From an uncultured Lachnospiraceae bacterium (GTDB lineage: Bacteria > Bacillota > Clostridia > Lachnospirales > Lachnospiraceae): a stretch of DNA of 45,787 nt. Under the pieces are notes generated by a model. The model saw only the letters and a program-made list of their open reading frames with translations. It was not told the origin of the DNA and searched no databases. The stretch spans positions 1 to 45,787 of the forward strand of contig CAMOJK010000008.1 of assembly GCA_946616835.1 (NCBI GenBank), written 5' to 3'. Shown here one piece after another: positions 16,024 through 45,787 of the stretch (position 1 is its first letter; each line of letters starts with the position of its first letter). A program made the translations under genes and the position numbers.

Positions 16024-17541
16024 ATGTCAAAAGAAGATCATAAATATATTGCTATAGATTTAAAGAGTTTCTTTGCGTCAGTTGAGGCTGCAGACAGGAA
16101 GCTTGATCCATTGACTGTTAATCTTGTTGTAGCTGATCCGTCAAGAACTGAAAAGACTATATGTCTGGCTGTTTCTCCGGCACTTAAAGCTTATGGAATA
16201 CCGGGAAGGGCCAGACTTTTTGAAGTGCTTCAGCGGGTAAAGGAAGTAAATGCAGTACGGTTGAAAGCTGCGGGCGGAGCATTTTCAGGTCGCTCTTTTA
16301 ATGCACCTGAGCTGGAGGAAGATAAAAGCTTGGAGCTTGATTTTATAACAGCACCGCCCCGGATGAAGCTTTATCTTGAGACAAGCCAGAAGATCAATTC
16401 AATATATTTAAAATATATTGCACCGGAGGATATGCTTATATATTCGGTTGATGAGGTTTTCCTTGATGTGACACATTATCTGGCTTCCTACAATATGACC
16501 GCCCATGAGCTGGCAATGCATATGATAAGAGAAGTACAGGAGACTACCGGTATCACTGCTACAGCCGGCATAGGTACAAATATGTATCTGGCAAAGGTGG
16601 CAATGGATATAACTGCCAAGCATATTCAGGCAGATAAGGATGGTGTCCGTATAGCGGAATTAACTGAAGAGAGCTACAGAAAATCTTTGTGGAGCCACAG
16701 GCCGCTTACGGATTTCTGGAGAGTGGGACCGGGAACAGCTAAAAAATTAAAGGCACATGGAATGTATACCATGGGCGATGTGGCATTATGCTCCGTCGGA
16801 GATGATAAAGATTATTATAACGAGGATCTTTTATACAAGCTTTTCGGTGTAAATGCAGAGCTGCTTATAGATCATGCCTGGGGCTGGGAGCCGTGTACAG
16901 TGGCAGAGGCAAAAAATTATACACCTCAGAGCAGCAGCATAAGTTCGGGACAAGTACTGCAGGAACCTTACACTGCGGAAAAAGGAAGACTTGTGGTAAG
17001 GGAGATGGCAGATTCGGTCGCAATGGATCTGGTGGAGAAAAATCTCGTGACCGATCAGGTGGTATTAACTGTAGTATATGATATTGAGAATCTTACAGAT
17101 GCGGAAAGAAAGAAAAAATATTCCGGACCTGTGGTAAAGGATCATTACGGAAGACAGGCTCCAAAACCTGCCCACGGGTCTGAAAATCTGCCCAGATATA
17201 CATCATCGGCAAGTGCCATAGCTGATGCGGCTGTGAGGCTGTATGACAGGATCGTGGACAGTTCAATGCTTGTTCGACGCTTTTATGTGGTCATGGAACA
17301 TGTTAAGAATCGTGATGAAGCCCTGAATACCAAAAAGGAATATGAGCAGCTCACTTTGTTCGATGATCCGGAGGTTTTAGAAGAAGCAGAAAAAAAAGAG
17401 CAAAAAGAATACGAACTTCAAAAGGCAATGCTTTCTGTGCAGAAAAAATACGGAAAGAATGCGGTACTTAAGGGGATGAATCTTGAAAAGGGCGCGACTG
17501 CAATGGAACGCAATGCGCAGATCGGCGGACATAAGGCATAA
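16024..17541 (+). CDS. Y-family DNA polymerase (UmuC/DinB type)
   Basis: A translesion DNA polymerase. The catalytic carboxylates are D12 in AIDLKSFFASVE and D143-E144 in IYSVDEVFLDV. ATAGIGTNMYLAKVAMD and the HhH-like PLTDFWRVGPGTAKKL are standard palm/thumb blocks. The 505 residues, including a long charged C-terminal tail, place it closer to the Firmicute YqjW/UvrX-like group than to classic DinB. It lacks an obvious partner UmuD. It starts 21 bases after mnmA with a poor ribosome site, so its translation may be coupled or weak. No LexA box was identified upstream. Confidence 0.9.
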   Translation: MSKEDHKYIAIDLKSFFASVEAADRKLDPLTVNLVVADPSRTEKTICLAVSPALKAYGIPGRARLFEVLQRVKEVNAVRLKAAGGAFSGRSFNAPELEEDKSLELDFITAPPRMKLYLETSQKINSIYLKYIAPEDMLIYSVDEVFLDVTHYLASYNMTAHELAMHMIREVQETTGITATAGIGTNMYLAKVAMDITAKHIQADKDGVRIAELTEESYRKSLWSHRPLTDFWRVGPGTAKKLKAHGMYTMGDVALCSVGDDKDYYNEDLLYKLFGVNAELLIDHAWGWEPCTVAEAKNYTPQSSSISSGQVLQEPYTAEKGRLVVREMADSVAMDLVEKNLVTDQVVLTVVYDIENLTDAERKKKYSGPVVKDHYGRQAPKPAHGSENLPRYTSSASAIADAAVRLYDRIVDSSMLVRRFYVVMEHVKNRDEALNTKKEYEQLTLFDDPEVLEEAEKKEQKEYELQKAMLSVQKKYGKNAVLKGMNLEKGATAMERNAQIGGHKA

Positions 17542-43512: not shown

Positions 43513-44136
43513 ATGAACAATAATATGAAAACTGAAGGAAGAACATTCGGGTATGTGCGTGTGAGCAGCAGTGATCAAAATGAGGATAGACAGATTATCG
43601 CAATGCGTGAAGCCGGTGTACCGCTTGAAAATATATATGAAGAAAAACAGTCCGGCAAGGATTTTAACAGACCTGTCTATAAAAAGCTTATCAGTAAGAT
43701 GAAGGCAGGTGATGTCATGTATGTAATGAGTATTGACCGTCTTGGAAGGAATTATGAAGAAATACTGGAACAATGGAGGATGATAACAAAAGAAAAAGAT
43801 GCAGATATCGTGGTGATCGATATGCCGATTCTGGACACAAGATGCGGAAAGGATCTGCTGGGAACACTCATTTCCGATCTGGTACTGGCACTTTTGAGTT
43901 ATGCGGCAGAGAACGAGAGAAGCAATATCCGAAAAAGGCAGGCAGAGGGCATTGCTGCAGCCAGAATAAACGGGGTTCATCTTGGCCGTAAGCCTGATCC
44001 GCTGCCGGAAAATTTCGGGGAAGTCTATATAAAGTGGATCAATAAGGAAATCACTATAAATAAGGCAGCACATGAATGCGGAATGGCTCAGACGACATTT
44101 TATGATAAAGCAAGGAAATATAAGACAAAAAAATAA
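43513..44136 (+). CDS. Serine recombinase (resolvase/invertase family)
   Basis: A 207-residue site-specific recombinase of the small (Hin/resolvase) class. The catalytic serine is S18 in GYVRVSSSDQN; further catalytic blocks are SGKDFNRP and the arginines of SIDRLGRN and ENERSNIRKRQAEG. The C-terminal helix-turn-helix (about residues 175-200, ITINKAAHECGMAQTTFYDKAR) contacts the half-sites. GGAGGAAAA precedes the ATG. The gene lies next to inverted copies of a dyad site that suit this enzyme, and upstream of a sortase. It most likely inverts the adjacent DNA. Confidence 0.92.
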   Translation: MNNNMKTEGRTFGYVRVSSSDQNEDRQIIAMREAGVPLENIYEEKQSGKDFNRPVYKKLISKMKAGDVMYVMSIDRLGRNYEEILEQWRMITKEKDADIVVIDMPILDTRCGKDLLGTLISDLVLALLSYAAENERSNIRKRQAEGIAAARINGVHLGRKPDPLPENFGEVYIKWINKEITINKAAHECGMAQTTFYDKARKYKTKK

Positions 44137-44150
44137 ACACTGTACCTGCT

Positions 44151-44175
44151 TTCGGAAAGGTGTACTTTTTCGAAA
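44151..44175. repeat. Left inverted-repeat site of a putative invertible element
   Basis: In reverse complement this is a 24-base dyad: arm TTCGAAAA, centre AGTACACC, arm TTTCCGAA (TTTTCGAA in the right copies, one base different). It follows the recombinase stop by 14 bases and may also serve as the tail of its terminator, because a hairpin here runs into five T. Confidence 0.85.
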
Positions 44176-44307
44176 TCACGTCCATCCTTCAGGTACATAT
44201 TCAAGCAATATATTTTTATCACATATTTTATGAAAATACAAGTATTTTTATAACTTTTTAACATTTTATGTTAACCGAGAATATTAAGAATATCTGTTTA
44301 TAGTAAT
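44176..44307. other. Putative invertible segment
   Basis: These 132 bases between the inverted sites are strongly AT-rich, hold no open frame with a ribosome site, and contain several -10-like sequences on both strands (for example TATAAC and TAAAAT types). An on/off promoter is the expected content, but I cannot tell from sequence which orientation would drive the sortase. Confidence 0.6.
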
Positions 44308-44350
44308 TTTCGAAAAAGTACACCTTTTCGAAAAAGTACACCTTTTCGAA
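44308..44350. repeat. Right sites: two overlapping direct copies
   Basis: The site occurs twice with an 18-base period (44308-44332 and 44326-44350); the copies share the half-site TTTTCGAA. Both are inverted with respect to the left site. Confidence 0.88.
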
Positions 44351-44414
44351 AATTTTTTGTTTGCTGAGTGAATTCTGTCTGATATAGACAGCATACCGGA
44401 GAGGTAAGTGGAAT

Positions 44415-45479
44415 ATGGATATGCGTCATAGAAAAACAGCAGTGCTTTTTATTTTGTTTTCTGCGATTGCAGCAGCAGGGGGGGCAATTATCCTGCATGA
44501 GCAGAGAGGACAGGAAGTAGCTGCCGCACAGTATGAAGAACTGGCGGAAAATGCAGATAATATAACTAATATAAGCGGCGAGGAGTTTTCCGCAGAAGCG
44601 GGGAGTGTTGTTACGGATGGCATTGTGACAGAAGCTTTTGGTCAAAAGCTCGTAATGGAAGAAAGTGCTGAGGTTCAGACTGTCGAATTCGACGCCGCCT
44701 TGGCGACAGCTCTGGAAGCGGCGGCTAATGAAGCATATGCTGGAGCTGCAGATGCAAATGTACCGGTATCTGCAGACGCTGCTGTTAATAATGATGCTGT
44801 AACAGGTGCAGCACTTTCGGATGCAGAATTGTTTGCCTTATATGCGCCTCAGGCCAATAAGGTCATTGACTGGAACGGACTTAATCTTACGGTGAATCCG
44901 GATATTTACGCATGGATCACTGTGCCGGGAACCAATATTGACTATCCGATGGTCCAGCACCCTTACGACAACGCTTTTTACCTGAATCACAATCTTGACG
45001 GAAGTGCGGGATATCCCGGCTGTATTTATACGGAAAATTACAATTCTAAAACTTTTACCGATCCGAATACTGTTATATACGGGCATAACTTAAAGAATGG
45101 CACGATGTTCTCCAAACTGCATGTTTTTACGACAGCCGATCTTACCAATGAGAACCATGTCTTCTATATTTATACACCGACGAAGATCTGTGTTTATCTG
45201 GTATTTGCGGCTTATGAATTCCCGGCATATCATCTGGTGCTCAACTATGATTACAGCAATATTTACGCATATGAGCAGTATCAGCAGGATATATTGACAG
45301 GATATGGTATACGCCCGGGTGGAACACATAATGTTCGCCAGGGAGTGACACTTACGGGAACTGACCGGATCGTGACACTTTCTACCTGTACAAAGGACCA
45401 TAATAAGGCATACAGGTATCTTGTGGCAGGAAAACTTATAGGAGAAATCAGTCTGGTTCCCGAAGAAATGACGCAATGA
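44415..45479 (+). CDS. Class B sortase
   Basis: A 354-residue membrane-anchored transpeptidase. An N-terminal membrane segment (about residues 8-26) is followed by an Ala/Glu-rich spacer of about 110 residues and the sortase barrel. The triad is H224 in IYGHNLKNG, C325 in TLSTCTKD and R334 in NKAYRYLVAGK; the TLSTC and NIDYPMVQ blocks point to class B. Class B enzymes attach specific proteins, often haem or pilus factors, to the wall. No sorting-signal substrate is seen in the window. GGAGAGG precedes the ATG. Its upstream DNA is the putative invertible element. Confidence 0.9.
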   Translation: MDMRHRKTAVLFILFSAIAAAGGAIILHEQRGQEVAAAQYEELAENADNITNISGEEFSAEAGSVVTDGIVTEAFGQKLVMEESAEVQTVEFDAALATALEAAANEAYAGAADANVPVSADAAVNNDAVTGAALSDAELFALYAPQANKVIDWNGLNLTVNPDIYAWITVPGTNIDYPMVQHPYDNAFYLNHNLDGSAGYPGCIYTENYNSKTFTDPNTVIYGHNLKNGTMFSKLHVFTTADLTNENHVFYIYTPTKICVYLVFAAYEFPAYHLVLNYDYSNIYAYEQYQQDILTGYGIRPGGTHNVRQGVTLTGTDRIVTLSTCTKDHNKAYRYLVAGKLIGEISLVPEEMTQ

Positions 45480-45527
45480 CGTGATCACACAGGCCCGGAG
45501 GGCTGTTGGGGGTTACGGTTATTCAAT

Positions 45528-45787
45528 ATGATAGACAAAAAAAAATATACGGAAAAAATAAAATTGGGCTTTGGTGCCAGATTCGTTGTCACACTCGTAA
45601 TGCTTGCACTGGTCATAGGCGGCATTGTGCTGGTGCTCAGGATCGTAGGCAAGCATCATGTGACGGAAGCCGTGGCACAGACTGACGAGCTTATGGTTGA
45701 TGTCGGAGGCGGGGCCGATCAGGTTGCAGATGCGTCAGGACTTCCGGAGAACCATATCCTGTATAACGGCGAAGAATATGCCCTGAA
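45528..45787 (+). CDS. Start of a membrane-anchored protein (truncated by window end)
   Basis: An open frame from ATG 45528 runs past the window end and gives 86 residues. A basic N-terminus (MIDKKKYTEKIK) is followed by one membrane segment (about residues 17-40) and an extracytoplasmic start ending NHILYNGEEYAL. That ending recalls the region just before the catalytic domain of LytR-CpsA-Psr-like proteins in Clostridia, but this is a guess from a few residues. It lies 48 bases after the sortase stop, so they are likely co-transcribed. The frame is too short for the usual cutoffs only because the window ends. Confidence 0.6.
   Translation, partial: MIDKKKYTEKIKLGFGARFVVTLVMLALVIGGIVLVLRIVGKHHVTEAVAQTDELMVDVGGGADQVADASGLPENHILYNGEEYAL

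Follow-up and report, generated by a model that had tools for sequence, protein, structure and literature searches.

At its far end the window, by which is meant the whole stretch of 45,787 nucleotides that was analysed, carries in order a GH5 gene, a serine recombinase gene, a left dyad, a short segment, two right dyads, a sortase gene and a gene cut by the contig end. The left dyad begins 15 bp 3' of the end of the recombinase gene (at 44136) and occupies 44151-44174; it reads TTCGGAAA-GGTGTACT-TTTTCGAA around a central GT and differs by one mismatch from the pattern used to search for such dyads, which has 16 fixed bases within 24 bp. The right sites, at 44309-44332 (central AC) and 44327-44350, match the pattern exactly, overlap through a common TTCGAA, have centres 18 bp apart and lie in opposite orientation to the left dyad; reverse-complemented, either of them agrees with the left site in 23 of 24 bases. 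As the central dinucleotide is non-palindromic (GT on the left, AC on the right), the sites are properly inverted. A recombinase gene beside an inverted dyad pair is the arrangement of a serine-recombinase invertible promoter switch, and that arrangement is found here. The original prediction of a 24-base dyad occurring once after a serine recombinase and twice in opposite orientation before a sortase, with 23 of 24 bases in agreement, is borne out by the pattern search and alignment, and the spacer described there is indeed AT-rich and non-coding, its length needing correction from 132 to 134 bp (44175-44308). This is the candidate invertible segment, and its layout is met with in relatives also.

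With up to three mismatches allowed the pattern matches the window four times against 0.42 expected, a count reached in none of 100 shuffles, the fourth match being at 17359 with three mismatches. With up to two mismatches no site beyond the three dyads was found in the whole 3.05-Mb assembly, and a global control of the Mpi kind through further sites in the genome is rejected on that count. Exact TTCGAAAA half-sites, the only half-sites sought, are confined to the dyads within 43513-45787, and by this measure no second type of site was recognised there. Across the family the same sites occur in two of 397 genomes, the own genome and a single match in G159; the genome G008 has the sites yet is absent from the listing of 397, so such sampling misses close kin.

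The recombinase (43513-44136, plus strand, 207 aa) is Sin/resolvase-like and likely to be the inverting enzyme. Its reading frame is intact and contains a resolvase catalytic domain (Pfam Resolvase, 1.3e-26), and its closest solved structures are Sin entries, aligned over residues 12-160 with a best E of 4.8e-29 (2r0q, titled Tn552 DNA-invertase bin3, near-identical chains being titled Sin), so that the catalytic domain, over these residues, is kin to the Sin-like resolvases. Two chains titled plain DNA-invertase gave 2.2e-13 and 5.8e-13. The designation 'Hin/Mpi-type' given earlier does not hold. Membership of the Hin/Gin invertases is rejected with Sin entries at 4.8e-29 against 2.2e-13 for a plain DNA-invertase and with Gin distant in the tree, and membership of Mpi is rejected by a score of 45.7 bits (45.4 in a second scan) for the family NF009949, far below its curated cut-off of 272. 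In a tree of 145 rows (L045, L103 and L225 left out), the deep forks of which are weak, the recombinase and the G008 copy form a pair within the recombinases of Clostridia, and the Clostridia group stands apart from Bacillales and Enterococcus plasmid relatives, from a Tn3-type resolvase and from Gin, which sits on a very long branch next to the Tn3-type resolvase. The switch label, counted over the tree without the 57 rows that carry no label, changes 4 times against 24.6 when shuffled, and is therefore clustered, yet does not form a single clade. The own genome has two further relatives, at G000:C5:11432-12025 (L044, 64%) and G000:C30:12754-13350 (L079, 41%); beside the C5 copy stands a dyad pair of its own (21/24), the arms of which are slightly different, and this copy may therefore form a separate switch or engage in cross-talk.

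Downstream of the dyads lies a class B sortase gene (44415-45479, plus strand, 354 aa), the product of which carries the sortase motifs GHN and TLSTC. It scores above the Pfam Sortase cut-off (9.3e-12), and against the class B family TIGR03064 it gives an E of 8.6e-38 at 130 bits, under the cut-off of 153.75. The gene behind it is cut by the contig end (45528-45785, plus strand) and probably encodes a LytR-CpsA-Psr (LCP) family protein: the 86-aa fragment has no Pfam match of its own and aligns at 45% over 73 aa to the post-sortase gene of L190 (in G034), which is Pfam LytR_cpsA_psr at 3.6e-22. An anchored protein had been expected in this position, and none is seen within the part of the operon that the window covers. 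In G034 the operon goes on to encode a small protein that bears the sorting-like motif PQTGE, along with glycosyltransferase-like products (named by eye), and from this content, LCP gene included, the window operon probably concerns the surface attachment of proteins or glycans. Near eight fetched sortase loci of the genus tblastn found no relative of the recombinase (one match was at chance level). A tyrosine-type integrase two genes before the sortase was seen in three of these eight loci (L195:515-1489, minus strand; L196:1281-2399; L197:1595-2713), recognised by Pfam Phage_integrase in the two that were scanned and by identical ends in L197.

Within the segment a putative promoter on the minus strand (44213-44241), made up of a −35 TTGTAT at 44241-44236, a 17-nt spacer and an extended −10 TAAAAA at 44218-44213, points to the recombinase. 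A family promoter model built on 35 hand-picked segments scores the minus strand at 7.0 and the opposite strand at −3.3; when two similar segments are taken out of its training set the minus-strand score is 3.8, a value that 95 of 500 shuffles reach and that is weak alone. A general promoter scan of the window is uninformative, with 3 matches against 1.7 expected, and leaves the direction undecided. The window's own promoter is weak and probably OFF, and with moderate confidence the window as assembled is read as OFF for the sortase.

For the relatives 63 segments were scored, drawn from 67 loci whose pair reaches 17/24 or more, with L062, L073, L095 and L114 set aside by eye and the segments of L116 and L126 placed by eye. 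The best promoter score was 9 or more in 42 of the 63, against 12.5% of shuffles. The promoter points to the recombinase (OFF) in 36 and away from it (ON) in 7, and is undecided in 20, the window among them; in 24 of the 43 segments with a decided direction, a distance of 29-35 bp separates the −10 from the exit boundary. As most loci were sequenced in the OFF state, there are few ON cases, and these include the fold-back contig L116 discussed below. The first open reading frame after the cassette runs in the same direction as the recombinase at 79 of 99 loci and in the opposite direction at 20, at least three of which (L129, L132, L141) are antisense-frame picks over a co-directional TnpB-like gene.

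Relatives of the recombinase at 1e-20 or better are present in 47 of 144 genomes, own included. The loci compared numbered 121 (40 fetched from listed places, the window, and 80 from named genomes), became 116 on removal of 5 duplicates or near-duplicates, and 108 of them were examined, the others being too short through contig ends. With the window counted in, 50 of the 108 loci have an inverted 24-bp pair scoring 19/24 or better after the gene, compared with 5 of 107 that have one before it and 0.33 in a shuffled set; at a threshold of 18/24 the figures are 58 after, 7 before and 2.7 shuffled. A cultured relative, Butyrivibrio hungatei XBD2006 (L110), has a pair of 20/24. The pair at 19/24 or better is missing in 58 of the 108, and L095, L119 and L123, among others, are without convincing sites. 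The commonest dyad core is GTGTAC and the arms are variable. Over 51 loci the arms covary with the DNA-binding (C-terminal) domain of the recombinase (r 0.20, 11 of 999 permutations), and do so with the catalytic domain held (r 0.23, 6 of 999); with the catalytic domain itself no covariation was found in the same 51 loci (r 0.02). Enzyme and sites are thus linked, modestly but beyond permutation.

Among 20 viral or phage copies, a set that leaves out two of 19 viral loci found earlier, pairs of 23-24 were found in L199 and L200, which are in the same orientation, and a pair of 18 in L201, the others reaching at most 16. In six Bacillales plasmid relatives the upstream pairs score 15-19 and the downstream pairs 15-18, which does not separate the two sides, so that an upstream res site is argued there by a common motif alone: four of the six (L218, L220, L221 and L222) have a common inverted GTTCG-N-AAAAGT-type motif upstream of the gene, as in res sites.

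A look through related genomes for the inverted form had been suggested as a check, and between the segments of more distant relatives such an inversion is found. In L132 and L141, which are the same locus, all 121 of 121 bp between the cores are identical but inverted, and identity goes from 357/450 as found to 430/450 after inversion in silico. Nine homologous segment pairs could be compared, four being in opposite orientation (L141 against L108, L121 and L132; L116 against L158) and five alike, the four opposite pairs coming from two separate comparisons, one of L141 with its kin and the other of L116 with L158. Past its segment the contig of L116 turns back on itself, its own left flank recurring in mirror image over 98 exact bases, and among the 67 loci whose pair scores 17/24 or more it is alone in this. 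A contig of this form results when an assembler meets both segment ends next to one flank; mixed orientations in the sequenced culture would yield it, and a plain assembly fold-back is also possible. L126 and L136, candidates for opposite orientation from their half-sites, were not counted, as their inner segments do not align. The metagenome assemblies L102 and L107 are 99% identical over about 900 bp upstream plus the recombinase and then diverge at the first site core, which may be a rearrangement or an assembly effect.

Contigs end within 260 bp after the gene at 14 of 115 loci against 2 of 115 before it (p 0.002), and 5 of the 14 ends fall at the dyad core or within 1 base of the dyad end. 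The nearest relative of the window, G008 (one MAG, 72% complete), has a recombinase of 98% amino acid identity and DNA of 96%, and its contig breaks off at TTTTTCGAAA, the final base common to both orientations of the window's segment; nothing of the rest of its segment was found beyond that contig end, and the best match to the sortase in G008 is at 29% identity. The tandem, spare dyad of G008 is on the left, on the recombinase side, which is the arrangement that would be expected after exchange with the outer right site.

The reading preferred here, to which a probability of roughly 0.8 is given, is that of a compact promoter-inversion cassette, and it draws on the sites, the layout and its conservation, the covariation of sites with the DNA-binding domain and the natural inversion in relatives. 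The recombinase would bind the inverted 24-bp dyads adjoining its own gene, and strand exchange at the central GT/AC would flip the segment of about 134 bp. In the assembled orientation the segment promoter would face the recombinase, so leaving the sortase OFF, and once inverted it would drive transcription across the right-hand site into the sortase-LCP operon, turning it ON. The two right sites would be alternative partners, with exchange at the outer one moving the spare copy to the left as in G008. The core of the original prediction, a recombinase-operated invertible promoter before the sortase operon, is well supported by comparison, its wording on the type of enzyme and on an anchored protein apart. 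We infer that this recombinase acts here, that the window promoter works and that sortase expression is phase-variable, as also that inversion and phase variation occur in this strain itself.

Hairpins at the sites offer a different account. The region around the left dyad (44141-44197, plus strand) is predicted to form a strong RNA hairpin (MFE −18.4 kcal/mol, z −3.81, for 44130-44200), and a terminator-like dyad lies on the minus strand of the right sites, so that inversion could be real, with the segment or hairpins of the dyads terminating or attenuating transcription according to orientation rather than setting promoter direction, for which cwpV, in the part of PMC2784873 drawn on here, is a precedent. 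In relatives the hairpin was compared at 33 of 43 loci (10 were skipped, the core pattern not being found), and beside the recombinase it is stronger in the promoter-OFF orientation at 26 of the 33 (p 0.0002), with mean energies of −17.5 (OFF) and −12.6 kcal/mol; the OFF-stronger hairpin is also seen in 5 of 6 loci sequenced ON. The gene-side site hairpin showed no orientation difference over the 33 loci (p 0.44). By analogy with fim and cwpV, as set out in that same part of PMC2784873, the OFF-side hairpin of the relatives might, depending on orientation, serve the recombinase gene as a terminator or an insulator. As a replacement for promoter inversion the hairpin account is nevertheless unlikely: in the window the hairpin is equal in both orientations (−18.4 against −18.6), and the segments of relatives carry strong promoters in both orientations.

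It is also decidedly improbable that the dyads are resolution sites or operators of a chromosomal or plasmid-derived resolvase, serving autoregulation or multimer resolution, with inversion rare or absent. The Sin-like sequence of the enzyme would suit such a role, as would the res-site position of the upstream motif, which lies in the best pair of four of the six Bacillales plasmid relatives, and the direct copies at 44309-44332 and 44327-44350 could support an 18-bp deletion. Set against this are the inverted pair after the gene in nearly half of the loci examined, the exact natural inversion between L132 and L141 together with contigs that end at the dyads, and a genome with no second site cluster at up to two mismatches. 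That the repeats are remnants of an insertion of the recombinase gene, mobile-element ends now fixed and inactive, is a very remote prospect, because near-identical recombinases in different surroundings (L126/L127) and the eight sortase relatives without a nearby enzyme relative by tblastn, which would fit it, are opposed by a matching repeat before the gene in 0 of 80 loci under a strict core test, by the intact reading frame, by the covariation of the arms with the DNA-binding domain and by inversion in relatives. In L126 and L127 homology is limited to the gene with about 50 bp before it and 39 bp after it; an exchange of the cassette at the core is suggestive but is not claimed, as metagenome assemblies may be chimeric there.

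Returning to the promoter-inversion cassette, enzyme and segment stand together before many different genes in related bacteria. Six first post-cassette genes that were scanned encode a Cna_B/pilin-like protein, an MBOAT acyltransferase, an FtsK/SpoIIIE ATPase, an SPFH protein, an MmeI-type restriction enzyme and a TnpB-like protein. TnpB-like genes behind the switch fall into two groups, one with L121:4815-5987, L108, L129, L132 and L141 and the other with L150:4807-6120, L094 and L158, and TnpB structures match L121 at an E of 2.6e-34 and L150 at only 9e-06. In L121 positions aligned to the RuvC residues are altered (GVD to GLK, DRDENAA to NREANAA), so that its product may have lost nuclease activity and be a TldR-like regulator governed by a flip switch. 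The switch also stands before an MmeI-type restriction enzyme (L106:4767-7544) and before two methyltransferase-like genes (L052 and L053, by eye); if it works at these loci, defence would be phase-variable.

For the window itself a tiny segment that the adjacent enzyme can flip seems to be the on/off switch of a cell-surface operon in a gut or rumen bacterium. A wider proposition, to which even odds might be given, is that Clostridia recruited a Sin/beta-type resolvase lineage into a portable, self-contained inversion cassette of 0.9 kb, in which a promoter with its −10 some 32 bp from the exit site accompanies the recombinase and two dyads, and which renders downstream operons phase-variable, among them sortase-LCP, pilin-like, restriction enzyme and apparently nuclease-dead TnpB-like ones, the recombinase-side RNA hairpin of many members being stronger when OFF and perhaps insulating or tuning the enzyme gene. 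If true, the sortase-LCP surface operon of the window would be switchable between cells, the recurrence of the cassette in Lachnospiraceae and Oscillospiraceae would allow phase-variable operons of uncultured gut and rumen bacteria to be predicted from sequence alone, and an evolutionary route from resolvase to promoter switch would be suggested. Among the literature matches listed, in which subscription papers are mostly outside coverage, there is no description of a Sin-like downstream-site cassette in Clostridia, and with coverage so partial this is weak evidence of novelty.

Promoter inversion by serine recombinases is itself already known, from Mpi and Hin, and the best-known invertible promoters are those of Bacteroides and, within Clostridia, those served by tyrosine recombinases. 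Hin and Gin have serine chemistry, inverted dyads and an inversion switch; the window differs in that its recombinase gene lies outside the segment. Mpi of Bacteroides is a serine recombinase that flips short promoter segments before surface genes and acts on many loci, in contrast to the window's site pattern, which is unique in its own assembly at up to two mismatches, and to its recombinase, which scores below the Mpi family cut-off. The Mpi work on Bacteroides is cited in PMC11892184, which in the sections drawn on here describes gut invertons of a defined community, with segments beside their own recombinase genes, some of them in Clostridia. In those sections the Clostridia link of highest significance concerns a recombinase group of the tyrosine type; the main text of the paper nowhere uses the words serine, sortase or resolvase, and its Firmicutes_A group 125, with a new motif given in the supplement, may overlap the present cassette.

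The cwpV switch of C. difficile likewise has a short invertible segment before a cell-wall protein gene (PMC2784873, in part), and so resembles the window in having a short segment before a surface gene in Clostridia; it differs in that its recombinase, RecV, is of the tyrosine type and its promoter sits outside the invertible segment (same source), whereas the window has a serine recombinase and a putative promoter inside. Sin and beta recombinase are Sin-like resolvases of Gram-positive plasmids, and Sin entries are the closest solved relatives of the window enzyme. From the portions of the sources drawn on here, Sin has a dyad crossover site with a 2-nt centre (PMC2428073), and beta recombinase is cited for inversion as well as resolution, going by reference titles in PMC8493755. 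Sin depends on a DNA-bending protein and on a second site, site II, arranged head to tail, and works on directly repeated res sites (PMC2428073, PMC2764113, both in part), and it is a resolvase the regulatory sites of which block inversion, according to the same part of PMC2764113, a point that counts against the inversion reading. Where the Sin-like pattern would have a crossover site upstream of the gene and no inverted partner, the window has three dyads downstream of it, two of them inverted to the first, and these flank a putative promoter.
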